Positions 11,901 to 43,547 of a DNA stretch of 64,000 nucleotides are shown one piece after another (the first letter of the stretch is position 1; every line of letters starts with the position of its first letter). A program made the position numbers and the translations under genes. The stretch is from Dictyophora rubrovolvata (lineage: Eukaryota; Basidiomycota; Agaricomycetes; Phallales; Phallaceae), in contig CP114124.1 of the NCBI GenBank assembly GCA_029959195.1, positions 434,001 through 498,000 of the forward strand, in the 5' to 3' direction. The notes beneath the pieces were generated by a model that did no database searches, was not told the DNA's origin, and saw nothing but the letters and a program-made list of their open reading frames with translations.

Positions 11901-12519
11901 GCTTTATGGTGCCATAGTCACTTGTGGAATATACACCGTCGCCGGCTGATTCGTTCACAATTCAATACACGCACGGAAAGAATAAAACCTGACTGGATAA
12001 TCGCTTGTTAAACATACCTTCAGACACCCAATTTAAAGTTCTTTTTTCCATTGCGAAGGTGCCATCATAAATATTATCCAGTGCAATATGCCGTAATCCT
12101 GACCGTTGAACGGAGTTATCCGTGGAAAAGAAGAGTGGGAAGAGCGCAATGATCACCGCGAGGGAAACTAACCCAGAGATGCATAATATCAAATAACGCA
12201 AATATCGCTTTATCCCCAAACAAAGAGACTTGTAATGAGCCGTTGAAGAATAAAAATGATTTATCAAATATCTAACCTTGTCTCGCTTGCTTGTCGAGCC
12301 CCTATGTTTTATGTTATGTTCAATACCAGAATCTGACGTCAAATCTTTATCAAGAAGCGTTTCTTCATCGCCATCTACGGAACTCGGTGGAGAAAAGGGG
12401 CCGTCATTGTAATATGTTGGTGGACGAATGAAGACGACACTGTTCTCTGGGATTCGAGCACTGACGACATTATCATGTATATAGCTGTCTTCGTCTTGTG
12501 TAAGGGCTTGATAGGACAT
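8946..12519 (-). CDS. Type II membrane dipeptidyl aminopeptidase (DPP IV/Ste13/Dap2 family)
   Basis: A multi-exon gene (about a dozen introns) for a serine peptidase that removes X-Pro or X-Ala dipeptides in the vacuole or Golgi. The first exon encodes a cytosolic tail and one membrane span ([20 protein letters not shown]). The beta-propeller region follows, then the alpha/beta-hydrolase domain: the nucleophile sits in [13 protein letters not shown], split by an intron exactly before the Ser codon (about 9590); the Asp lies in HGTGDDN, split by an intron at about 9270; the His lies in [10 protein letters not shown] near the end. All three catalytic residues are kept. An apparent frame break near 10.27 kb resolves as an ordinary GT-AG intron joining [10 protein letters not shown] to [11 protein letters not shown] Met five codons upstream (12534) is an alternative start. 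Diverges from SYS1. Confidence 0.88.
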
Positions 12520-12723
12520 TATGAGCAAGCTCAATGTCTCCCAACAGCAGTTACGAGGGCTTAATTATATGCGACGAGTGAGCAGGTACTTGATGTTCAC
12601 GTTTAATTGTAGGTTTGCTCCAAGTTTGCTCCGTCGGCGGCGAGTTCGAAGATTACAAACTCCGCGGGCGCCAAACTATAGACTTTGTTCAAGTTAAAGC
12701 TACTTCGTTGTTGCCTTCATGTC
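12520..12723. promoter_or_regulatory. Divergent promoter of the dipeptidyl aminopeptidase and SYS1 genes
   Basis: About 200 bases lie between the two start codons, so both promoters must fit or be shared here. No unambiguous motif was identified. Confidence 0.4.
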
Positions 12724-21627: not shown

Positions 21628-24553
21628 ATGCCGACAGCATACTCTTTACCGTCTAAACTGTCTCGCGAAACAGTAACAAATACTGCTTCACTCATTCGCA
21701 TTGTCGCTCTCTGTTTCATTTCTGGTGCAGCCATTGCATCTCGTCTTTTTGCTGTTGTTAATTTCGAAAGTATTATTCACGAATTGTAAGCCCATTTCTG
21801 TTTGGATTCCATAGACGTATCTTGATTTTTTTCCCCAGCGACCCATGGTTCAACTAGTTCGTACTTGATCTCACTATCAATAATTGTATGGAAACTAAGC
21901 CATTCTAGCCGGGCTACGAGAGTCTTAGCCTCAAAAGGATTTTATGTAGGAATTGTTTCCTTCTGAACTATAATATCTCCTCATGCATTGCAGGAATTCT
22001 GGAATTGGTTTGACCCAACAGCTTGGTATCCTCTGGGGCGTGTTGTTGGTGGTACAATTTACCCCGGACTCATGGCAACTAGTGGTGTCATCTATAATCT
22101 TCTCCATACATTCAATTTGCCGGTTGATATTCGAAACATATGTGTTTTACTTGCGCCCGGTTTTAGTGCTCTTACTGCTTGGGCTACTTACATGTGAGCA
22201 AAATGACTATAGCCTCGCTTTTTTTCTTTAACCAAAATTCTATAACGCCAGGATCACAAAAGAGATGAAAGATGAAAGTGCTGGTCTATTAGCTGCCATC
22301 TTCATTGGTATAGCACCTGGTTATATTTCACGTTCCGTGGCAGGCTCCTATGACAATGAAGCAATTGCGATCTTTCTGTTGATGTTTACCTTCTATCTCT
22401 GGATCAAGGCCCTAAAACATGGAAGTGCATTCTTTGGAACAGGTGCTGCCATCTTTTACTTTTATATGGTTGCCGCTTGGGGTAAGTGTGGTTTTTGTTG
22501 ACATAGACGTGAATGAAATGATTATATCTCCTAGGTGGTTACGCCTTTATTACCAACATGATCCCTCTTCATGCATTGACTCTGGTTCTCATGGGAAGAT
22601 TCAGCAACCGTTTGTATGTTGCTTATAGCTCTTGGTATGCCATTGGTACCCTCGCTAGTATGCAAGTACCATTCGTAGGATTCCAACCTGTGAGGACTAG
22701 CGAGCACATGGGGGCCCTTGGTATGCTGCCTTGCCCTTTGGTAAATTTTGAAGAAACTCAAAATGTTCCTCTCCTTAGGTGTTTTTGGGCTTATTCAACT
22801 TGTCGCTTTTACGGATCTTGTACGCTCCCATGTGGGATCCGCCCAGTTTCAATCGCTTCTCCGCGTGTCGTTGATCAGCATTAGTGCCATTGGTGTGGCT
22901 ATATTTGGCGTTCTCACTATGCAAGGCTGGATCGCGCCTTGGACCGGTCGTTTTTATTCTTTATGGGATACCGGTTATGCTAAAAAGTAACGTTATATCC
23001 ATTCATTTGAAACTAATGATTAATTTTTGGAAGGTATATTCCAATTATTGCATCCGTATCGGAGCATCAGCCAACGGCCTGGAGCTCCTTCTTCATGGAC
23101 CTTCACTTTTTGATTTTCACTTTTCCCGCCGGAGTAGTCTTCTGCTTTAAAGAACTTCGTGATGAGCATGTTTTCATTATCATTTACGCGGTGGTGTCGT
23201 CTTATTTTGCCGGTGTAATGGTTCGACTTATGTTGACCCTTACGCCGGTTGTTTGTATCGCCTCCGCCATCGCCATTTCTAACCTTTTGGATGTGTATAT
23301 TGATCCCACGGTGCCTCAAATACCCGAGAACGACGATAAGGATTCTTCTTTTATGAGTGACGTTGCTTCCAATAGTGGTATTTCTACACCTTCGAAGAAG
23401 GAGAAAAAGAAGGCTGCGGCAGCCCCTCCAGCCAACAGTCTCACTTCCCTATTCACACCTAATCCGGCGACAAAGCAAGCGACGGGTAAAGCGACTCCAT
23501 CACGAGGTATATTCGGATTAGATACCAGGATTGCTGTTGTGGCAAACGTGATCTTCTTACTCTTATTCTTTGTGCAACACTGTACATATGTCACCTCGAG
23601 TTCCTACTCTTCTCCATCCGTTGTGTTGGCATCGCGTAACCCCGATGGAAGCCAACATATTATTGATGACTACCGCGAAGCCTATTATTGGTTACGACAG
23701 AACACACCTAGGGACGCTGTAGTCATGAGCTGGTGGGATTACGGCTATCAGATTGCTGGTATGGCGGACCGACCGACACTTGTCGATAACAATACCTGGA
23801 ATAACAGTCAGTGCAAAAGTCATAATAATAATGTTGTCTTGTGTAGTGTTTATCGATTTCTACAGCCCATATTGCCACTGTTGGAAAAGCCATGTCTTCA
23901 AAGGAAGAAGTTGCGTATCCCATTTTGAGAAAACACGATGTGGATTACGTCCTCGTCATCTTTGGTGGCCTTTTGGGCTACTCCGGTGATGACATAAATA
24001 AATTTCTTTGGATGGTTCGTATTGCACAAGGTGTATGGCCTGACGAGATTCAGGAACCGAACTATTTCACTCCACGAGGTGAATACCGGGTAGATGATCA
24101 AGCTAGCACTGCTATGCGAGAGAGCTTGATGTACAAAATGTCATATTATAGGCAAGCATTTACAATACCCACATTAAGTTTTTTTTAAAAAAAATGGACG
24201 TTCCTCCCTCTAGATTCAATGAACTGTTTGGAAGTTCACAAGCAGTAGACCGGGTTCGCAATCAACGTATGCCCGGAGTTGGACCAACTTTGGACTATCT
24301 GGGTTAGTGTTTGCTTTTTACCTATATGGACAAAACTAACTTCGCCTTAGAGGAAGCGTTCACTTCGGAAAATTGGATTGTGAGAGGTCTTATATTTCGT
24401 GAGAAAATGAGATGCTAATTTGCAACACAGGTCCGCATATATAAAGTTAAGAAGGAAGACATTTTAGGTCGCGATCTTAAAAGCGCAAATGCCTTTGATG
24501 AAGGCAAAAAGCGAAGGCGAGCACGTCCTGGACCGCGCCGACGAGCAATCTAA
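21628..24553 (+). CDS. STT3: STT3, catalytic subunit of oligosaccharyltransferase
   Basis: A multi-exon gene for the ER enzyme that transfers the lipid-linked glycan to Asn in N-X-S/T sequons. The N-terminal loop HEFDPWFNYRATRVLA with its catalytic DXD-like Asp, the many membrane spans, the [10 protein letters not shown] loop and the luminal signature [13 protein letters not shown] are all visible and intact, and the protein ends in a basic [11 protein letters not shown] tail as in fungal orthologs. A tiny exon encodes DPWFNY, spliced on both sides. Fungal-type insertion of about 70 low-complexity residues ([14 protein letters not shown]) follows the last membrane loop block. The Met at 21628 is preferred because it gives a short tail before NTASLIRI; the frame is open upstream. 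Confidence 0.93.
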
Positions 24554-24838
24554 CCAGGTTCAGAATGTAACAATGAGCTTAAAAATTATTTATAGCCAGT
24601 TTTTATGAAAATGTTTTTATAAAAATGTTGGATTGATAGAGCAAAAGGCGATCTAATTAAGTCCAAGGGAGTGTTTCGGACAACTCGATGTCCCAACCAC
24701 AGCGCCCTGAACTCCAAAACCGATTTCCGGAGAAATCCGAGAACAATTCACGAATGAATTCACCACTGATGTGAAACCCCCTATCAATTGTTTCCGCCGA
24801 CTTTGACGAACGGCGGCCACGAGAGCAACTTCCCAGCC

Positions 24839-27800
24839 ATGGGTCATCCTATCACACTTGCTACGCAAGTCCAGTCTTGTATATTATGCTATAGCATAGT
24901 TTTACTGACGCGTTCAATTCAGATGGTGAGCAGGGCCACTAATTCAAAGCATAATCCATCGAGCGCAACTATTCATTTGTAACGCAGCTCATTAAGCCAG
25001 TGGGCCTTGGATTTTGAAGTAATTCATTACAACGTATATATATTCCAATCTTATCTGATGCCTTTTGACCAAGGGAAACTATGAGCGAATTATGCAAAGC
25101 ATAAAAATTGCGAAAGAGAGAGGCGCATCTCTTCGTGTGGGCCCGGAATTAGAAATCCCGTTCGTCCGAGTTATGCCTCTTTTCTTCTTTGTGTACTGAT
25201 TTTTGATAGTGGATATGGCTGCCTTGATCATTTCTCGGAAGGTTAGCTCCCCTTTATCAAGTCGCTAGAACTATCTGATATCCCTTTTCAGGAGATACCG
25301 TTCTGCATTCCTGGGAAATTCCAGCCAAAATTCTTGCATCTGAAGACGCTCGAGGGATCATGTGTGATATTGGAATGTACGGAAGCACCTTAAACATTAT
25401 TTAACTTTCGTCGCGGAACTGACTGCAACCTTTTACCATAGGCCAGTTGTCCATAAGAGCGTTATTTACAACTGCCGTGTCGTCATTAACGATGGGGAAA
25501 TTTTGCTTATTCGCCCAAAGCTATGGCTAGCTAATAATGGAAATTATCGTGGAATGAGGTATTTCACTCCGTGGGCTAAACATCGTCAATGGGAGGAGCA
25601 TTTTTTGCCTAGAATGATTCGAGAGGTTACAAAACAGGTAGCTTTCATATACGCATATTATTCACGGATTCCCTTGCCATTCTTTTACAGTCTAGTGTTC
25701 CATTTGGAGACGTTGTTATCAGCACCTTAGATACTTGCATTGGCATAGAGCTTTGTGAAGAACTCTTCACTCCGGGAAGGTTTGGTCCTTGTTCTATTAA
25801 TTAATATCAAGGTTCTGAGAATATGGCAGTCCACATATTCTTATGGGCTTAGATAGTGTAGAAATTTTTTCGAACTCAAGTGACAGCCATCACGAACTGA
25901 CGAGTAGAGCTCATCAAGGAAGCTACGTTGAAGGCGGGGCAATTTCCTCCTTTGTACAATCATAATTATGATGAAACTTGTTATTATAGCTCGGCGGCGT
26001 GTATCTATACGCCAATCAACAGGGCTGCGACGGAGACCGACTTTACTATGATGGCTGCGCCATGATTGCCTTGAATGGAAAAATAATAGCTCAAGGGACC
26101 CAATTTTCCCTCAATGACGTTGAAGTAATCACCGCAACGATAGACATTGAAGATGTCCGTGCTCATCGTGCTGTTATGAGTCGGAATATGCAAGCTGCAA
26201 ATACAGAACATTACCACCGCATTCAAATTGGCAAGGCTTTATCTTCGGGCACGTTGGAGCATGTTCATGATATACAATGGGCTAGATCGTTTGAACTCAG
26301 ATATCATTCGCCCGAAGAGGAGATTGCGTAAGTTCGCTATTATGTTTTAATTGGTTCGTGAGTCTGATGAAGGTGCTTATTTTAGCTTGGGACCTGCATG
26401 TTGGCTTTGGTATTATCTCAGGCGATCGCAGACACAAGGTTACTTCGTCCCTCTAAGTGGAGGTATCGACAGTTGTGCGACAGCGGTCATTGTATATTCC
26501 ATGTGTCGATTGGTAGCTGAAGCCGCCAACAGAGCTGGTATGTTGACTTCTCCGTATATTCCTTTGTTCTAACTAACTTTCCTCTCAAGACAAGCAGGTC
26601 ATTCAAGATGCCAGAAGATTCTGGTTATATTCCATCTGATCCACGGGAGTTCTGCAAACGTATTTTTCATACGTGTTACATGGAAACTGAAAACTCTAGC
26701 GCGGACACACGTGGCAGAGCTAGGCTTCTCGGGGACGCAATCGGAAGGTGTGCATGACTTGATCGTTTTGTATGAATCTCAGACTTATATTCTTGGCTTG
26801 GAAGCTATCACATTGATCTCAACATGGACTCTGTTGTAACTGCCATGCGGCGACTTTTCGCATTTGTCACCGGCTTAAAACCCAGATATAAAGCCCATGG
26901 AGGATCCAATGCTGAGAATTTGGCTCTCCAGAATATCCAAGTAAATTGTTCTTTTCGTGCTGATTCGCTTTGGTTTGTTTTTGAGTTGACATAGGCTCGG
27001 CTGAGAATGGTTATCGCATATATGTTTGCTCAGTTACTCCCTTGGGTCGTGGTCGTTCCGGCGGCTTACTCGTGCTGGGGAGTGCGAATGTTGACGAAAG
27101 GTGATGCCGTTTTAGTCACCACTCTTCTTGTTCACTGATTATTACGACAGTTTACGGGGATACTTAACTAAATATGATTGCTCGTCTGGTAAATAATCAC
27201 TTTATTGCCACCTGGGATACATTCGACTCTGTATTTCCAGCGGACATAAACCCTATCGGAGGCATTAGTAAAACAGACTTGAAAAATTCATTGTGTATGC
27301 TTCGGACACATTCAAACTGCCCATATTAAATAGGTAGGCACCATATGTTCCCTGACCTAATTTACTGTGTCAGTAATTCGTTCCGTTTAGCTTCTTGACC
27401 GCCATCCCGACGGCTGAATTGGAGCCTATTACAAAAACCTATGTGCAATCTGATGAAGTAAGTAACGACAAATCAGAGAAGGGGAGACAGAGCTGAATCT
27501 TTGACATAGGCTGATATGGGTATGACATACGAAGAATTATCGGTGTTTGGTCGACTCAGGAAGGTCGAGAAATGTGGGCCTTATAGCATGTTCACCAAGC
27601 TACCGCATCAATAGGGCAATTTTCTTTCCCCGCAACAGGTTCGGAATCACTATTAGTTAGTGCGTTTCGTTGACTAACGACGCGATTGCAGATTGCGACG
27701 AAGGTCAAACTCTTCTATTTCGAGTACGCTCAGAACAGACATAAGATGACTACTTTGACACCTGCGTATCATGCTGTACGTGTTTAAGACGATCAGCTCT

Positions 27801-28033
27801 AATGAACGTTAGGTTATCTGTTGAATGTTTAGGAATCATACAGTCCAGATGACAATCGTATGTTGAATTTGCTTTAATTGTTCACTTCAGAATTATCGAG
27901 ACTTTTTATAGGCTATGACCTGAGACCCTTCTTATACCCGTCTCGCTCCCCATTCCAGTTTAACAAGATAGATGCTGTGGCAGCTCTCGTACCCGATCGT
28001 TCTAATGCGCAATCAAAGGAAAAGACGGAATGA
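24839..28033 (+). pseudogene. QNS1: Broken glutamine-dependent NAD+ synthetase (QNS1) copy
   Basis: Homology covers the whole enzyme: the nitrilase-type glutaminase half ([28 protein letters not shown] with the catalytic Cys) and the synthetase half (PLSGGIDS P-loop, HGGSNAENLALQNIQARLRM, LGSANVDES, SADINPIGGISKTD). Most splice sites are still good. The frame is nevertheless broken at least five times: a deletion of about 14 bases near 25903 (between SHHEL and VELIKEAT), a deletion of about 20 bases near 26610 (DARR runs into PEDSGYIP in another frame), single-base losses near 27046 and 27287, and TGG to TAG at about 27613 (in the GNFLSP region). None can be removed by an intron. The normal product makes NAD+ from nicotinic acid adenine dinucleotide and is essential, so a working copy is expected elsewhere. 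Confidence 0.85.
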
Positions 28034-28145
28034 GATATGTATACCAAGGTTAAATTTGTATACATATATACGATGCAGTGATGTTGTGTCGTCCATAAAT
28101 AATGTTATAAATAAATTAAAGAAGGAATATACTCTATACGATGGT

Positions 28146-30476
28146 TTACTGTTTAGCAACGTTGAGTAACCGGGCAAACGTTCCTTGAACGACGACCTTT
28201 TTCATTATCGTTGGTTCCTCCGCTAGAGCAAAACACGTGTCAAGATCCGTTTGAGAAGTCTTTTTACAATAGATACCACTTACGATCCGTAATTTTCTCC
28301 TCTTTGACTCTACGCTTAACACGAGCTTTCATCAAACCTTCCACGAACGCCAAACAAGGCCCATGGACTTTTGCAAAATTCCAATACGACAAGTACACGA
28401 AACTCGGCGATGCCTCAAGTAATGACAAAACCATATCAACGACTTTGAAGTAGTCTTATAGTTCAGCAGGCGATTTGAATGCCGAGAAAAAAGCGTAAGC
28501 TTCTCCAATGTCCGTTTTTATCCGATCGATTCCGGAGGGAATGCGTAATTTGGAGGCGTTCCCGAGTGCTGTCAAGTATGTGATTAGGAATGTATCCAGT
28601 AGATCTTCCAATAGTAGTTGGAAGATGGATGGGTTGAGGTATATTTGGTAATCTGTCATATAATCTTGGAATGTCTCGGTGATTTGCGCCATGATCCTAT
28701 TATACCATGTCGATGTGAATAATCGCCCCGTTGCCGGTTTTAAGTCGTGGAATATCAAGTCGATCAGCGTTTGAGTACATTTCTTCGCAACGTCGAGATA
28801 TCCGTCGATGGCGTTGTTGAGCCGCTCGCCTATAATTGCTTGATATTTCTCGGACACTAAAGGTTCGAGACGTGCTGAGAGAACTTCAGCATAATCAGCG
28901 CTCTTGATTTGATCATTCGCTACCGCAATAACGTATTCAACAAGACCACCTTTGGCTTCCTCCGGTTTTTCGACTTGCTTTTTGAACTCGCTCTCGATGG
29001 TCTTGATACATTGCAACTGTGTTTGACGCATAACGCCATTACAATCCTCGATAACTTGGGCGGGGGTGGCCCCCTGCCCACTATTGGCTGCAAGATCGAC
29101 CTGTTGGTTGACCATTTGGAACATTATAACAGCACTCTGCATGCCATAAAGACCGTCAAGATCAACTTCTGGCGGTTGTTCACGTGCAGTGAAGTCCTTG
29201 AGTTCCGTTTTCATGATATTTCCGCTCCATTCATCTAATTTCTTCACAATCAAATTACGGTAGTCATCTATCAGCGATTGTTCCTTTCCATTTCTTGATT
29301 ATGTTGTTCAGAGTCTTGTGATACCCCCGAATATAGAACTTATAAATCTCATAATCGGGAGGAAAACAGGGTACGGCGTCTTCTTCAACGCGAATGATAT
29401 CTTGATATATCCATCCTAGACCGTCGATAAAAGCAGGGGGGTTGTTTTGGTCTTCGGCGTAGGCCCTTTCGAAGGCCTTTCGAATTGATTCAGCTATATT
29501 TTTCATCATATTTAATCTGTAGTGCTTCAGCTGCCGAGCGTTGGCCTGTAAAGACCTGAACCTAGATGCGGCGTCCACCTTTCCTGCTTTTTTCAACAGT
29601 TTGATAGCGATTGCCTAAATCAACATGGACGAGGGTTAAATCTAGCTATGGGAAAGATGGGAAGAAAAGCCAACTCTTTGATCTTCCAAGCCTTCCACTT
29701 CTGCGATTTTGCAAAGTTTGACAATCACCTCGGGATGACCTGCGCGAACAATAGGCAGAACATTACGCGATAGTGCGGTGATATAAACGTTGAAATCGGT
29801 GATGACCTTATCCAGTCGTTCAAAGCGTTGGTTCAAGACTTTGAGTGACCGTGATTTAGCCGATTTGGCTTGGTGTAATGTTTCGTTGCGGAATGTCTCG
29901 ATCTGGTGGTGAATAGGGAGTAGATTGATAGCCGGACTCAAGATGTTTTGCTGTTCGGCGTGGAGCATCTCAGCTAAGTCGTCTAGTTTTGAAGACATGT
30001 CTTGTAGGTTCCGGACCATTTCTTCTACCCGTTCAAAATTCCGATGTACGTTAGGTACCTACGAAGAAAACCGTTCTCCTCATAAATCGCGTGCTATCTC
30101 AAACAATAAAAAAAAAAAAGAGCGCACCCGACTAATTTGGTCAAACGTACTGACAGCATTCTGAGGATTGCTGTAATGTGCAAAGCAGCCATTTCATCCT
30201 TGATACTCTGAACATCATTGCGGGTGCTGAACAATCTCTGCAGCCCTTCTCTGGTTCTTTAACACCGCTCTTGAGCTTGTTATCGATAGAAGCCTTCTCT
30301 TTCTCGAGTTTGTTTCTGAATGCGATTATTTTGACGAGCACAGCGCTTACTATGTTCTGATGAGTATGTCGAGCCTTCCATAGGCATCGAAGTAACAGCT
30401 TATACGGAACCTCGTCTTGTTGTCCTGTTGTATGCATGCATTGCTCATCAGCGCTCCTGTGTGTGAATATCAATAA
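28146..30476 (-). pseudogene. SEC6: Broken exocyst subunit SEC6 copy
   Basis: Matches SEC6 from near the N-terminus (LVKIIAFRNKLEKEKASID) through FDQISR-VPNVHRNFERVEEM, NVLPIVRAGHPEVIVKL, FPPDYEIY, KKLDEWSGN, ADYAEVLSARLEPLVSEKY and GYLDVAKKCTQTLIDLIF to DPEEPTIMKKV at the end. It is disabled by frameshifting deletions near 30258 and 30150, a loss of roughly 45-50 codons with frame change near 29300 (between NNIIKK and KEQSLIDDY), an in-frame TAA at 28456-28458 (where family members have Glu before DYFKVVD), and a loss of about 15 codons near 28312. No clear start codon remains. SEC6 normally tethers secretory vesicles at growth sites. It lies tail-to-tail with the broken QNS1, 112 bases apart. 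Confidence 0.85.
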
Positions 30477-30579
30477 GCGATTTTAAGGTAAATAATATTA
30501 TTGTACAAATGATTAAAAGACTAATTGAAAGGAAACATCGAGTGAAAATGATAAGGAATTGGGTGGTAAAAAGAAAAGT

Positions 30580-32670
30580 TTAATGAACGTAACGCATCTC
30601 TCGTAAATAATTCAGAACATCACGCATGTGCACAGTTTGCATCGTCTTTGGACCTTTTGCGCCTTCTTCCACAGCAAGGCGAACGACTCCCCGGTGATAA
30701 AAATATACTACCGCTGCCATTGTTTTCGGGGAAGATTTAGGCAAGGAAGATACAACCGTTGTCGGAGGGGGCCCTTGAGAAGAATCTGAACTCGTTTTCG
30801 TAGAGGGGGGTGAAAGCCCAAGTGAATTTTGAGTAGACGCTGGCAGTGAATTTGATGATGACGACGATGACTCTAGGCTAGGTCTGTCGGGTGCGAGTTT
30901 TTGTTGCTGTTCCAGTAGCTGCCAGTTCTCCGTAGCCTCGTCCGAATTTCGCAATTTTACATTGTCGTCTGCCGTTCGTGATCGTGGCCGCGACGAAGGG
31001 CGAGGGCCTTTTGGTCTAGATTCCCGACGGGGAGGTCGGCCCGTTTGCCTATCGTCTTCCGAAATCAAATTTTCGTCACCCCATATAGTAGTCTCCCCTC
31101 TGCTATGACCGTGATGATGAGAGCGATGAGGCGAAGGGTGCTGTATGGGGGACGACGTTGAAGGGGTAGAAAATTCCCCGTCTTGTCTCCTTGCAGAATG
31201 GGGCAACGATGTTTGGGGGAGAGGAGGCGTGTGAGTGGTCGTTGCTTGGATACGACTTCCAGACGCGAGCGCTACGGCTGATTGTGTTTTTCGTATACTA
31301 CGTGTAGTAGGGCTGCCGTCGGATGATAAACTCTTGTCGTGACTGTTACCGAGGGAAGGAGGATGGAGAAAGCCTGTCAAGACATGATAAGCATAAAGAG
31401 GAGGATAAAAAAGCAAGGACGTGCCCAGATGTTTTTCCTCGATAGGAGATTCGTGCATGTTTGCTGGATTTAGAAACGTTGATTTTCTCAAAGGCTCCAC
31501 CTCTGAACTGAGATGTACTCTTTCATCGTCCTTGCTGGTCTTTTCAACGATGATTGTGTTACGTGATCGTACGACTTGGACGCCTTGTGTACGCTCAGTG
31601 TCCTACATACATACATATATGTGCCAATCAGCCAGTTGCCTCCGATTATGTTACATGGAAAACTTACAGAATTTTCATCGATAGTGGAGTGCATGATAGC
31701 GTCCTTGTCAAAGGATCTTTGATTTGAACCCTTGTAGTTATCCTTGGAAAAACTCCATTCTGACCCTGCAAGCGATGTCAGCTGGATTGGGTAAAGTGTT
31801 TCGTCTAGAATAAATTAAATAAGCCATCATATCCTGAAGTACCGTGGAAGTTTCCCAAGAGAACACTGTTATATGTATTAACATATTACCTTCAGCATTT
31901 AGACCGCCTATTACGCCTTCTGCTCTCTGTGCATTTGCACCATCAGTGTTTTGTCCGTCCATTCCAACTTCCAATATGTCGGTATAACCGGCTTTAAACT
32001 TGGGCTTCCACAGCCGTAGCATAGCTCTTGAACGTTTCACCGTGGTCCCACTTGTAGGCCCAATCGTTGAGACAGATACCGCGTTCTTCATGTGCCCGCG
32101 GGAAGACCGTTTGTGCTCCGCAAAAGTCATGACATTTGATGATGAGAGAGAGCGTCCTTTATGACTCGACGTAGGTGAAAGAAGGGGTGGTTGGTCGAAA
32201 AATATGAGTTCTTTGGGTACTTCTTCGCCCAAGCGTCGTTTGAGCTTCTCGAGTTTGACCCTACGAGCGTAAATCAAGGATGTAGATTTTTCTAACGCTT
32301 CGTCTTCGGACGGAATATTGTCGAGGGATGAATGTAGAGACAGGGTGGATTCGTTATTTGGCGGCACGGAGAGGCGAGATGACGATGACAGTGGCGGCGA
32401 CAACGGCGTGAGGGGAAGCTCTTTGTCTATGGAAAACTCCATTCGTTCAATGCCTCCCAAAGTCTCGTCTTCGGGGCCTAACATTTGACGTAGCTTGCGT
32501 ACAGACCTGACTCGCCTAGCGTGGCTTGAGTAAACATTAGTACTCGAAGCGGACAGGTCGGCGAAAGAAGAGATAGAACTTGAATGTGAGTGGAGCGTTG
32601 CTGGGGTGGTAATTGCAGAAGTAATACCGCTTTTAATGCTGGCTGGCCGGGAGTGAGCGTGGTCCCTCAT
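30580..32670 (-). CDS. Unrecognised Ser/Pro-rich protein, 646 residues
   Basis: Three exons join in frame (32670-31890, 31804-31668, 31602-30580). I do not recognise the family. The N-terminal half is Ser-rich with basic KLRQML and RVKLEKLKRRLGEE segments; a short conserved-looking patch (MLRLWKPKFKAGYTDILEVG) precedes the first intron; the C-terminal half is a long disordered S/P/T/R region; the last 50 residues are ordered-looking (AAVVYFYHRGVVRLAVEEG, then NYLREMRYVH). No membrane span or signal peptide is visible. The clean junctions and long open frames support a real gene, unlike its broken neighbour SEC6. Confidence 0.65.
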
Positions 32671-34140
32671 TGTCGAAATGGGAAGGGATGGATTCGATAG
32701 AATAAAAGGTGAATTTGAAGTTTAAGAAAAGAAAAAGTGCAATCTTGACTGCGCTAATTAAATTAAACTGGAACGTAGAAGAAAAGAGGAAGAAAGATTC
32801 ATCATGGATGGAAGAGCATCGGGTCGGCCCTTTTTTGAAGCTACCCTGACCGAAGTGACACATTTTTAGGCGTGCTCAAGCGGCGAGTAGTTGCCGATGA
32901 AGTTGCACAAACAAAATGTTTGCACTATTACTATATCGCGGATTTTCTGCGAAGTGATTGTGTCTCGTTAGCGACAGCAATCACATCATTTTGCAAAAGG
33001 AGTCTATAGAAACGAAATGTGGTCAGGTATCCGGAGCTAACGAGCAGACTACAGCCAATATGGCCAAATACAAATCTGGATCATCGCCTCACCTGCCCCA
33101 GTCAGCGAAAGAGAAAGCTAGGCGGATCTTGATTAGGGTTCCGAGACTACTCTGGGTTTGGGCCGGTAAACTCGATGAGTTGTGATTACATGCGATACAC
33201 CGCCGTCGTAAAACGCATGCGATGACGACTAATGACCGCCCCTTTCGACAATTAGGCCAACTTGGGGATTTCAAGTGGGAATGTCTCGTAGTTGCTGGTC
33301 CGCAGTTATTTGATCAAGCATTATAGCCAAACGAGGGAAGTGTCTCATGTCGTATGGACGAAGATCCGAAGCAGAGACCGACTCATACAGGGTTATCTAG
33401 GGTCATCTCTGGATATCTGCATACATATCTGCACATATTTGCATCAGCTCGAGGCAGGCTCGCGCGTACTAAGTGCAAGTGGCTGGAACGACGGATGGCA
33501 GTTGCAGGAGCATACTAAATGCTAAAGGCACATCAGATTCTTAGTCAGGAGCATCATGACAAGTTTGAAACGAACGCACATGACGGCACACGGTACAAAG
33601 AACCACTGGCAGGAACCTTCGAACTAAGTCAAATAGTACTAGTTAGAACTACGGAACTCCAAAAGGGGTCTCCTGTACAAATCGACGCCCATTTGCCAGT
33701 GACCTCAAAAACCGGATTTCTCTGCAGGACCCGCGTTGTATCCCTGGAACTCGACCACCGTGTTTCCTAATGATGAGTCCTCTATTTTTCTAGTTCTTTT
33801 GTTTCAAATGCTTTCAGCAAGTCCTGAGCTGTGTATCTTCCTTATAGCAATATCTTTGAATCCATATTAATGTCCTGCGCCGAGTCGCCGATCATAAAAT
33901 TGTTTTGTTTGCATCAGCCCTTTTTTTCTTTGTCGAGCTGTTTCCCCAAACAATCCAGAGGGTTTTCACAATCTCAGGCTTCGGATAGAAGTTAGCTCCA
34001 AACAAGTGCTTAAATTCTGTCGAGGAATCATCTTAGGGAACCCCGCCCCGCAACGCCTGTGTTTTACGCAAGTCTGAGACTATACTTGTACTACTTGTAA
34101 GTATGAACTCGAGCTTGGAGTAAGGTGCACGAGTATCCAA
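32671..34140. other. Intergenic, 1.5 kb, no gene seen
   Basis: Contains only short frames without family resemblance. The left part should hold the promoter of the 646-residue gene; the right end is the 3' flank of a GST gene. Confidence 0.4.
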
Positions 34141-35462
34141 TTAATCAACCTTCTCGAAACCGAAAATAGCTGCACCAAAGGCTCTGGTTTCTTCCTTCGA
34201 CAGTTTAGCTCTCCTGAAGGGAAGGTTAATGCAATGTATCTTTCACAGTTTCACAGTTCAGTGACACAGTGATAAATGAACTTACGCATCAGGATCCGTG
34301 CGTTCGGGAACCCCAACTCCCTTGTAAGTCTTTGGGCGGGCCATTATTCGCTCGAGCCAGTTTTTCAGATTCGGGTACTCCTTGAGGTCGATTTCGGCAC
34401 TAAACAAGGCAGTACGAACCCTTTACGCAATTCAACACTTTTTACAGAGGGATGATGGATTATGGCTTGTAGGTACGTACCACGGGCTTTGAATATTTAT
34501 AAGAGGGAGCAGTCCTATCAAAAAAAAAAAAAAAATGAAAATAAAAAGGTCAAAACTCACACAGCTTTGATGTCAGCCAAGCTATAGTGTGGGCCGACCA
34601 GCCATTCACGATCCTTCAAGCGTTCTTCAAGGACGGTGTATAGACGTCTTGTCTCATCCTATGAAAGTTAATTTTGTTCTCCAGCCAAATACTAATCATA
34701 CCTGATAGCGTTTGATAGCGTATGGAATATCTTCTGGGGCCAAACGTGTGAAATGACCGCTATGAACCGCTTAGTACATTTTCCTGAGTACTTATATTAA
34801 TCAAGCCTCACGCTTGGCCTTGCCTACGAGAGAAAAAATTCGGTTGTACCCATTCTCCAAAAGTTTTCAATCTACTTACATTGGTGCGAGTCCACCATGT
34901 GAGAAAAAAATCCATTGGAGTTGTTCGCTGTATAACTTAGGTTCTTTGACTGGGTCATAGGAGATTTTACGCTCAGTATCGAAGTGTTGCGCAACGTCTA
35001 AGCACAAGTCAAGGCTGAGAGAGAAAGTAGCGGTAGGAGCTTTAATCAACAACTTACATAGAAGAATGGCAGAAGATTCCCATACGGAGAAGTCGTCCTT
35101 GGAATGATCGATGAGAGCCGGAAGACGGCCTACACAAAGAAATAAGAACACGGAGTCAGTCTTCCATGAACAGGATGTCAATTATCAGCGCACCATTCGG
35201 ATTAATTTTCAAGTACCAGTCACTTTTCTGTTCTTTGTCTTTCAAAGAAAGAGTCTTGACATTATCTAGAATGCAATGCATAATAATCCACGATAGAAGG
35301 ACTAGCAATATACATGTGAGGTCTAATTCTTCAAGAGCCACAGGAACACACAATGCTGATAGTGAAAATGTACGTCGTGATCAGCTGGGACGAAATAAAA
35401 AGGAAGGAAAGAAACTAGCCTGCGGGTGACGGGCTTGCGTAAAGAGTCAGCGGAGAGGACAT
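34141..35462 (-). CDS. Glutathione S-transferase, Ure2p/GTT-like (copy A)
   Basis: A multi-exon gene whose exons read MSSPLTLYASPSPA, ALCVPVALEELDLTY, LSLKDKEQKSDWYLKINPNG, RLPALIDHSKDDFSVWESSA, DPVKEPKLYSEQLQW, RLAPEDIPYAIKRYQ and WLVGPHYSLADIK, finishing ERIMARPKTYKGVGVPERTD and RAFGAAIFGFEKVD. This is a thioredoxin-like N-domain with the glutathione-binding NPNGRLPALID and WESSAI blocks, then the helical C-domain. The first intron must be GC-AG (35356-35419). The same exon layout and about half or more of the residues are shared with copy B at 42.2 kb. Cytosolic glutathione conjugation or thiol chemistry is inferred from family. Confidence 0.82.
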
Positions 35463-42243: not shown

Positions 42244-43547
42244 ATGTCCTCCCCCGCGTTCACACTTTATTTAGTTACGTCCCCTTCTAGTGAGTTCCAT
42301 CGCTGCTTTTGTCTTTCGGCAACCTCTGACCGAATATATGCTCTTCAGCACAGTGCGTTCCCGCAGCGCTGGAAGAATTAGACATCAATTGTACGCGCCT
42401 GTATCGTGGAAGTTTATTTTCCTAACTGCGTCGCAGATGAGTTTAAGACTCTGGCATTCGAGAAAAATGAACAGAAAAGCGAGTGGTTTCTGAAAATCAA
42501 TCCCAATGGTGAGTTGAACTTTTTGTCGTTTTCAATCGTCAGTTTCCTTCTGAGTTCTTGCCAAAATTTAGGTCGTCTCCCCGCCTTGATCGACCATTCC
42601 AGGGGAGATTTTGTTATATGGGAGTCCTCTGCCATTCTGCTCTGTAACCATCTATTTTTATTATTGCTGCTATTGTCGCGATCTTTTTCAATTGAAATTC
42701 CCTGTATTCAGATGTTGCACAGCATTACGATCCCGACCATAAGATTTCTTATGATCCCGTCAAGGAGCCAAAGCTCTACAGCGAACAGCTTCAATGGTTG
42801 TTTTTCGCTCATGGCGGGATTACTCCAATGTACGTAAATCTGAATTCAAGATTATTATGCCGGAAAATCGATTCATGTGTTTCTCAGGCAAGGCCAAGCG
42901 TAGGCATTTTACAGATGATTCATCTAGCTCCGTACTGCAGCTGATTTATTCAAACAGTGGCCATTTTATGCGCTTGGCTCCGGAAACTATTCCTTACGCA
43001 ATCAAACGGTATCAGGTGCGATTGATCACATTCAGATAAAACACAACCTTGAAGTCCATTGAACAATTCCGAATAGGATGAGACTAAACGTCTGTACTCC
43101 GTACTTGAAAAACGTTTGGAAGGACGTGACTGGCTAGTCGGTTCCCACTATAGTTTGGCCGATATTAAGACCTTGTAAGTTCCATAACTTTTGAATATGG
43201 AATGTTTTGAGGCTCAAAATGATTGTAGCACTTGGTATGTATGCTATAATATTAGTCGATAATGTTTCAAGTGACTCGACGCTTTACGAAGGATTCGGTA
43301 TGCCAAGGGGGTCGGAATCGACTTGAACGACTACCCAAATCTCCAGAAGTGGGTTGAGAGAATAATGGCTCGCCCCAAGACTTATAAAGGATTGGGCATT
43401 CCTGAACGCAGGGATCCTGATGAGTATGTAAACAAACCATGATTTGACAACTTAATTTCATTATTTCTGTTTAGACTGGCAAAAATGCCCTTGGAGCAAA
43501 CTAGGGCTTTTGGAGCTGCCTTGTTTGGTTTCAAAAAAGTTGATTAA
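42244..43547 (+). CDS. Glutathione S-transferase, Ure2p/GTT-like (copy B)
   Basis: A multi-exon gene with first exons 42244-42289, 42349-42390 and 42437-42508, all phase-compatible. Blocks: LEELDINYEFKTL, EKNEQKSEWFLKINPNG, RLPALIDHSRGDFVIWESSA, DPVKEPKLYSEQLQW, MRLAPETIPYAIKRYQ, GRDWLVGSHYSLADIK, WVERIMARPKTYKGLGIPER, and RAFGAALFGFKKVD at the end. Same domain plan and intron positions as copy A, in the opposite orientation about 7 kb away. An in-frame TAG after QGQA is avoided by a normal intron, giving QAGHFMRLAP. Both copies look functional. Confidence 0.83.

Follow-up and report, generated by a model that had tools for sequence, protein, structure and literature searches.

Processed pseudogenes (retrocopies) are devoid of introns, and blocks of DNA captured by Pack-type elements are bordered at both ends by inverted terminal repeats of one family. 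Alternative transposition of Ac/Ds elements in maize and rice reportedly causes rearrangements at transposon ends. Duplicated (unprocessed) pseudogenes have been catalogued in hemiascomycete yeasts, and the genes affected there can include some whose function is essential in baker's yeast (PMC2876123). Here, we analyzed a stretch of 64,000 nucleotides from Dictyophora rubrovolvata (hereafter the window; C8:434001-498000, C8 being contig CP114124.1 of assembly GCA_029959195.1), in a genome of 28,239,528 bases and 11 contigs. It carries a pseudogene of QNS1, which encodes glutamine-dependent NAD+ synthetase, next to a pseudogene of SEC6, which encodes an exocyst subunit. Together they form a block that belongs to the duplicated pseudogenes: an intact parent is present in the genome, the introns are retained and the lesions are on the copy and not on the parent. 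The block is very probably a DNA-level segmental duplicate of an intact QNS1-SEC6 pair, with this twin presumably supplying both functions, and the block itself is most likely functionless.

The QNS1 pseudogene is located at positions 24839-28033 of the window, on the plus strand. Lesions aside, its coding region spans the whole interval from the ATG (24839) to the stop codon (ending at 28033), and all 19 introns are retained with the splice dinucleotides of the twin. Compared with the twin, it has undergone four frameshifting deletions (14 bp after 25899, 20 bp after 26609 and 1 bp after both 27046 and 27286) and contains a nonsense codon (TAG at 27612-27614, W626* in twin numbering). The SEC6 pseudogene lies on the minus strand (28146-30338), tail to tail with QNS1, and 112 bases separate the two stop codons in the alignment. 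It is disrupted by three frameshifting deletions (122 bp at 29290-29291, 4 bp after 30178 and 13 bp after 30253), two in-frame deletions (42 bp after 28319 and 9 bp after 29899) and a nonsense codon (TAA at 28456-28458, E657* in twin numbering), and its three introns also keep the splice dinucleotides of the twin. Furthermore, homology stops at codon 24 (position 30338), so that codons 1-23 are missing from the gene together with its promoter side. The sequence past this edge (30339-30482, minus strand) does not match the twin and forms an open frame that is in frame with the truncated SEC6; it contains an ATG that could have supplied a chimeric start. The initial annotation had described the two genes as tail to tail 112 bases apart, each broken by about five lesions with many splice sites kept. 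This description holds, with five lesions in QNS1 and, in SEC6, five deletions plus E657* and the missing 5' end. In the span it gave (24839-30476), the last 138 bases (30339-30476) have no match to the start of the twin SEC6. Among the open reading frames (ORFs) of the window, one matches Pfam CN_hydrolase and two match human 6ofb, as expected for NAD+ synthetase. Exocyst Sec6 is recognized by Pfam in three ORFs, in one case slightly below the cut-off, and also through yeast structures.

The intact pair is located at C8:888140-893953, on the same contig and about 424 kb from the window copy. Its gene models, built from the window-twin alignment, are open and complete. The twin QNS1 (C8:893953-890706) has 20 exons and 710 codons free of stops. 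Its product aligns over residues 1-705 with 6ofb, the human NAD synthetase (E 8.6e-293), and carries CN_hydrolase (nitrilase) and NAD_synthase in one full-length protein, both above the Pfam cut-offs. The twin SEC6 (C8:888140-890591; 4 exons, 753 codons) matches yeast Sec6 5yfp (E 1.8e-80) and covers positions 1-537 of the 537 of the Pfam Sec6 profile, above the cut-off. The twin is presumably expressed. Two of the 19 introns of the twin QNS1 are of the GC-AG type, with identical dinucleotides in the window copy, and the protein has the motif LATSLNQW, one residue shorter than human ATCALNQW.

Searches of the genome scored the best candidates only, a scope that a strongly diverged extra copy could escape. 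All 23 matches of the full-length QNS1 protein and all four matches of the Pfam Sec6 profile fell in the window and twin loci, and no third QNS1 or SEC6 gene locus was found in these protein and Pfam searches. For instance, one QNS1 exon used as protein query found two places, the window and C8:892443-892781, and the longest Sec6 ORF of the window found the window and C8:889406-890239. At the DNA level, positions 22000-34000 of the window gave long minus-strand matches within C8:888209-894019. They also matched 201 bases at C8:922264-922464 and, over short stretches, a repeat of about 57 bases. The Pfam NAD_synthase profile had no match in the genome despite the presence of two copies, presumably a miss of the method on short exons. 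The genome search thus found one intact pair and one broken pair, as expected from the initial annotation, which had proposed that the block is a segmental duplicate decaying as a unit with a working twin elsewhere.

The duplicated block (24765-30338) matches C8:888209-894019 on the minus strand in three aligned pieces, with 90.0, 94.9 and 91.6% identity. On the left, about 70 bp upstream of the QNS1 ATG, the BLAST match begins at 24773 with the twin and at 24765 with the 201-base fragment. A short-word search against C8:862001-922000 detected neither DNA from upstream of the twin QNS1 to the left of the block nor remnants of the SEC6 5' end to the right of 30338; the best right-hand match covers 16 bases (E 0.004) and falls at another place, close to C8:879190. 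All nine exonic indels are losses in the window copy and both nonsense codons are also on the window side. As for the 22 noncoding indels, the window copy is the shorter one in 14 cases and the twin in eight. The copies differ at 125 of 2097 exonic and 132 of 1086 intronic sites for QNS1, at 102 of 2002 and 18 of 186 for SEC6 and at 12 of 177 intergenic sites. The splice dinucleotides of the 22 introns are the same in both (44/44). When protein differences could be polarised, the outgroup shared the twin state in 17 of 24 cases for QNS1 (human outgroup) and in six of seven for SEC6 (yeast outgroup, limited to residues 251-645). Polarisation was not possible for 19 of the 43 differences in QNS1 and 39 of the 46 in SEC6. 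Mutation of the repeat-induced point mutation type was rejected, as twin-to-window changes are roughly balanced (C>T 77 and G>A 76 versus T>C 89 and A>G 67). No patches of gene conversion with the twin were seen along the block, where neutral divergence is fairly even (0.073-0.167 in 13 full intervals of 150 sites, 0.278 in the last partial interval of 18 sites).

The ratio of nonsynonymous to synonymous divergence (Ka/Ks) is 0.144 for QNS1, 0.241 for SEC6 and 0.182 for both genes (bootstrap 0.139-0.239). When the window lineage was simulated as neutral throughout, mean ratios were 0.347-0.367, and none of 200 runs was as low as the observed value at each omega (0.02, 0.05, 0.08 and 0.10). These runs contained on average 9.6-10.1 nonsense codons, versus two observed. 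Taken alone, QNS1 was never equalled in 200 neutral runs at each omega, and SEC6 was equalled in a fraction of 0.005 (omega 0.05) or 0.010 (omega 0.10) of the runs; as the rate assumed in these single-gene simulations (0.065 changes per site in each lineage) is too low for QNS1, only their ratios were used. Moreover, nine exonic indels against 22 noncoding ones give P 0.0005 for neutrality throughout and an unconstrained share of 0.27 of the window lineage (0.30 for SEC6, with five exonic indels and P 0.007; 0.25 for QNS1, with P 0.003). By simple arithmetic on half of the neutral divergence of 0.117, about five changes would be expected in the 88 splice bases under neutrality throughout, and none is seen. 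The Ka/Ks values correspond to an unconstrained share of about 0.3-0.5 when the two genes are taken together, of about 0.3 in QNS1 and of 0.5-0.7 in SEC6. In all of this, noncoding sites served as the neutral standard, and any constraint on introns would make neutrality throughout even less likely. The measures agree in kind that constraint lasted over much of the period following the split, the exact share differing among them, and the window copy has been without constraint for roughly a quarter to half of this period. Neither this action of selection for much of the time since the split nor the cut of SEC6 at codon 24 by the block edge was part of the initial annotation.

The 201-base fragment (C8:922264-922464) is a third piece of QNS1, from its 5' end, and starts at the edge of a transposon, as the window copy does. 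In the window, the left edge of the block carries the truncated end of a MITE-like (miniature inverted-repeat transposable element) transposon with terminal inverted repeats (TIR) at 24706-24780, of which 24706-24762 was found by BLAST and the rest by eye against the flanks of the family. The search of this TIR family, for which the best 20 candidates were scored, gave at least 42 match pieces. They include copies of about 450-490 bases and two end pairs about 3.3-3.5 kb apart (C1:263942-267781 and C2:1280176-1283835). The element end was probably already beside QNS1 before the copies split, because its outermost bases (G-C/T-GAAACCCCCTA) stand upstream of the twin QNS1 too and, in altered form, in the third fragment. 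The element end contains a palindrome, CACGTTGGTGAATTCCAACGTG, which is visible in the flanks of two loci of the family (L014 and L015), and breaks at this end have probably produced the common left edge. The two end pairs belong to longer TIR elements of about 3.7-3.8 kb, and the one examined (C1:263700-268000) has interior ORFs. Four of the six interior ORFs listed were compared with Pfam, with no match above the cut-off (best DUF7922, E 0.27); one ORF may have a PIF/Harbinger-like look.

Over 204 gap-free columns of 218, private changes number 14 in the window copy, 13 in the twin and 12 in the third fragment, and all three differ at two columns. The three QNS1 copies thus form a star without branching order, and the idea that the third fragment is the oldest copy was dropped since these counts give no order. 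The fragment adjoins a glycerol-kinase-like gene, which is an inverted copy (98-99% identity) of one standing upstream of the twin QNS1; Pfam recognizes FGGY domains in the copy on the twin side. This inverted duplication involves C8:894376-896948 and C8:919653-922218 (98-99% identity), and the QNS1 5' piece attached at the far FGGY copy is 15% diverged. The contrast between the near-identical FGGY genes and this diverged flank may reflect either gene conversion or a mixed origin. The interval between the twin and the third fragment (C8:901149-916714) contains a cluster of direct and inverted repeats of 0.2-1.2 kb with 86-96% identity.

Most likely, the block would have arisen through a break in the TIR transposon end next to QNS1 that was repaired by copying DNA to a new place. 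SEC6, whose cut edge is observed, would have been truncated by the event that made the block or that trimmed it later. The twin would then provide both NAD+ synthetase and the exocyst subunit and the window copy would decay. Since Ka/Ks, the exonic deletions, the nonsense codons and the splice dinucleotides all show more conservation than expected from decay all along, either the source was already diverged, which is probable, or the copies worked for a while. The first refinement assumes that the source was another haplotype of a very polymorphic species, or was introgressed, and that the block was non-functional from its insertion; we hold it to be evenly balanced. The loss of the SEC6 start favours it, without being a proof, given that the 5' end could have gone in a later deletion. 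Constraint is seen even in this start-less gene, whose Ka/Ks is reached in 0.5-1% of neutral runs and which has few exonic indels. The even neutral divergence along the block and the about equal distances between the three copies point in the same direction. Comparable diversity exists in another basidiomycete, Schizophyllum commune, with a nucleotide diversity (pi) of 0.05-0.06 within populations (PMC4209137). However, the present comparisons cover a single genome. More specifically, a piece of a diverged haplotype, from a polymorphic species or from introgression, may have been pasted by repair of a repeatedly broken, hairpin-forming transposon end, which would leave three copies that share an edge and have diverged to about the same extent; we propose this scenario tentatively, with more doubt than belief.

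According to the second refinement, both genes, or at least QNS1, remained functional at the new site during about half of the time, or longer, before they decayed. It is quite possible, if a shade doubtful. The same Ka/Ks, indel and splice-site data fit it, as do the QNS1 coding region, present from ATG to stop if its lesions are set aside, and the open frame that runs on beyond the block edge in frame with SEC6. Nevertheless, SEC6 is without its 23 first codons and promoter side, and QNS1 has merely about 70 bp of its own upstream DNA. A copy of this genome's own twin that has been neutral ever since its arrival would account for the truncated SEC6 and the many lesions, but it is improbable in view of the simulated Ka/Ks, the paucity of exonic indels and the unchanged splice dinucleotides. 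An assembly or sequencing error, affecting the lesions or the entire block, is very improbable: neutral sites have diverged by about 12%, and this, like the deletions of 13, 14, 20, 42 and 122 bp and the two flanks without homology, is not an error pattern. Lastly, the loss and replacement of two core functions by the organism, which the initial annotation had kept as an option, is virtually untenable in the presence of an intact twin of both genes.

Several points weigh against a duplicate derived from the intact pair at C8:888140-893953. The outgroup sides with the window copy in seven of the 24 polarised differences of QNS1 and in one of the seven of SEC6. The twin models depend on splice sites chosen by us (19 and 3 introns, two of them GC-AG), and it is from completeness alone that the twin site would be the ancestral one. 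Furthermore, the third fragment shows that the QNS1 region was copied repeatedly, and the measures of decay time differ (0.25-0.30 from indels versus about 0.3 for QNS1 and 0.5-0.7 for SEC6 from Ka/Ks).

The block shares with processed pseudogenes a distant location and a left edge shortly before the start codon. However, it has introns and two convergent genes copied together, and a retrocopy was rejected since the introns are kept. As in Ac/Ds rearrangements, a break at a TIR element end is accompanied by duplicated host DNA; unlike in these, the element end was found at one block edge only, and neither a target-site duplication nor a second end is established. Capture by a Pack-type TIR element was also rejected: the search for an element end at the right edge was negative, the family matching the window at the left edge alone (24706-24762), although remnants below the threshold could escape the search. 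The duplicated pseudogenes of the hemiascomycete catalogue (PMC2876123) likewise arose by duplication and decay while an intact parent persists. They differ from the present case, in which a pair of adjacent essential genes decays as a unit within a contig, with constraint after the split. No report of this QNS1-SEC6 duplicate was found among the titles listed in the literature search, which is no proof of absence.

STT3 and a right-hand gene flank the duplicated block on either side. The identity of STT3 is backed by Pfam for one ORF, and the two ORFs tried of the right-hand gene had no Pfam match. Elsewhere in the window, positions 12011-12593 match C8:239886-240416 at 70-77% identity, with smaller pieces nearby, perhaps as a result of an older duplication. 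Moreover, the segments 34283-34999 and 42710-43426 contain inverted repeat pieces of 111-135 bp with 75-80% identity.

Hence, the alarming picture of two dead essential genes in D. rubrovolvata is settled by a duplicate with an intact twin, and pseudogene is the proper annotation for the QNS1 and SEC6 copies of the window. That decay does not match divergence can be viewed as a small but usable sign of either a diverged source or a period of function.

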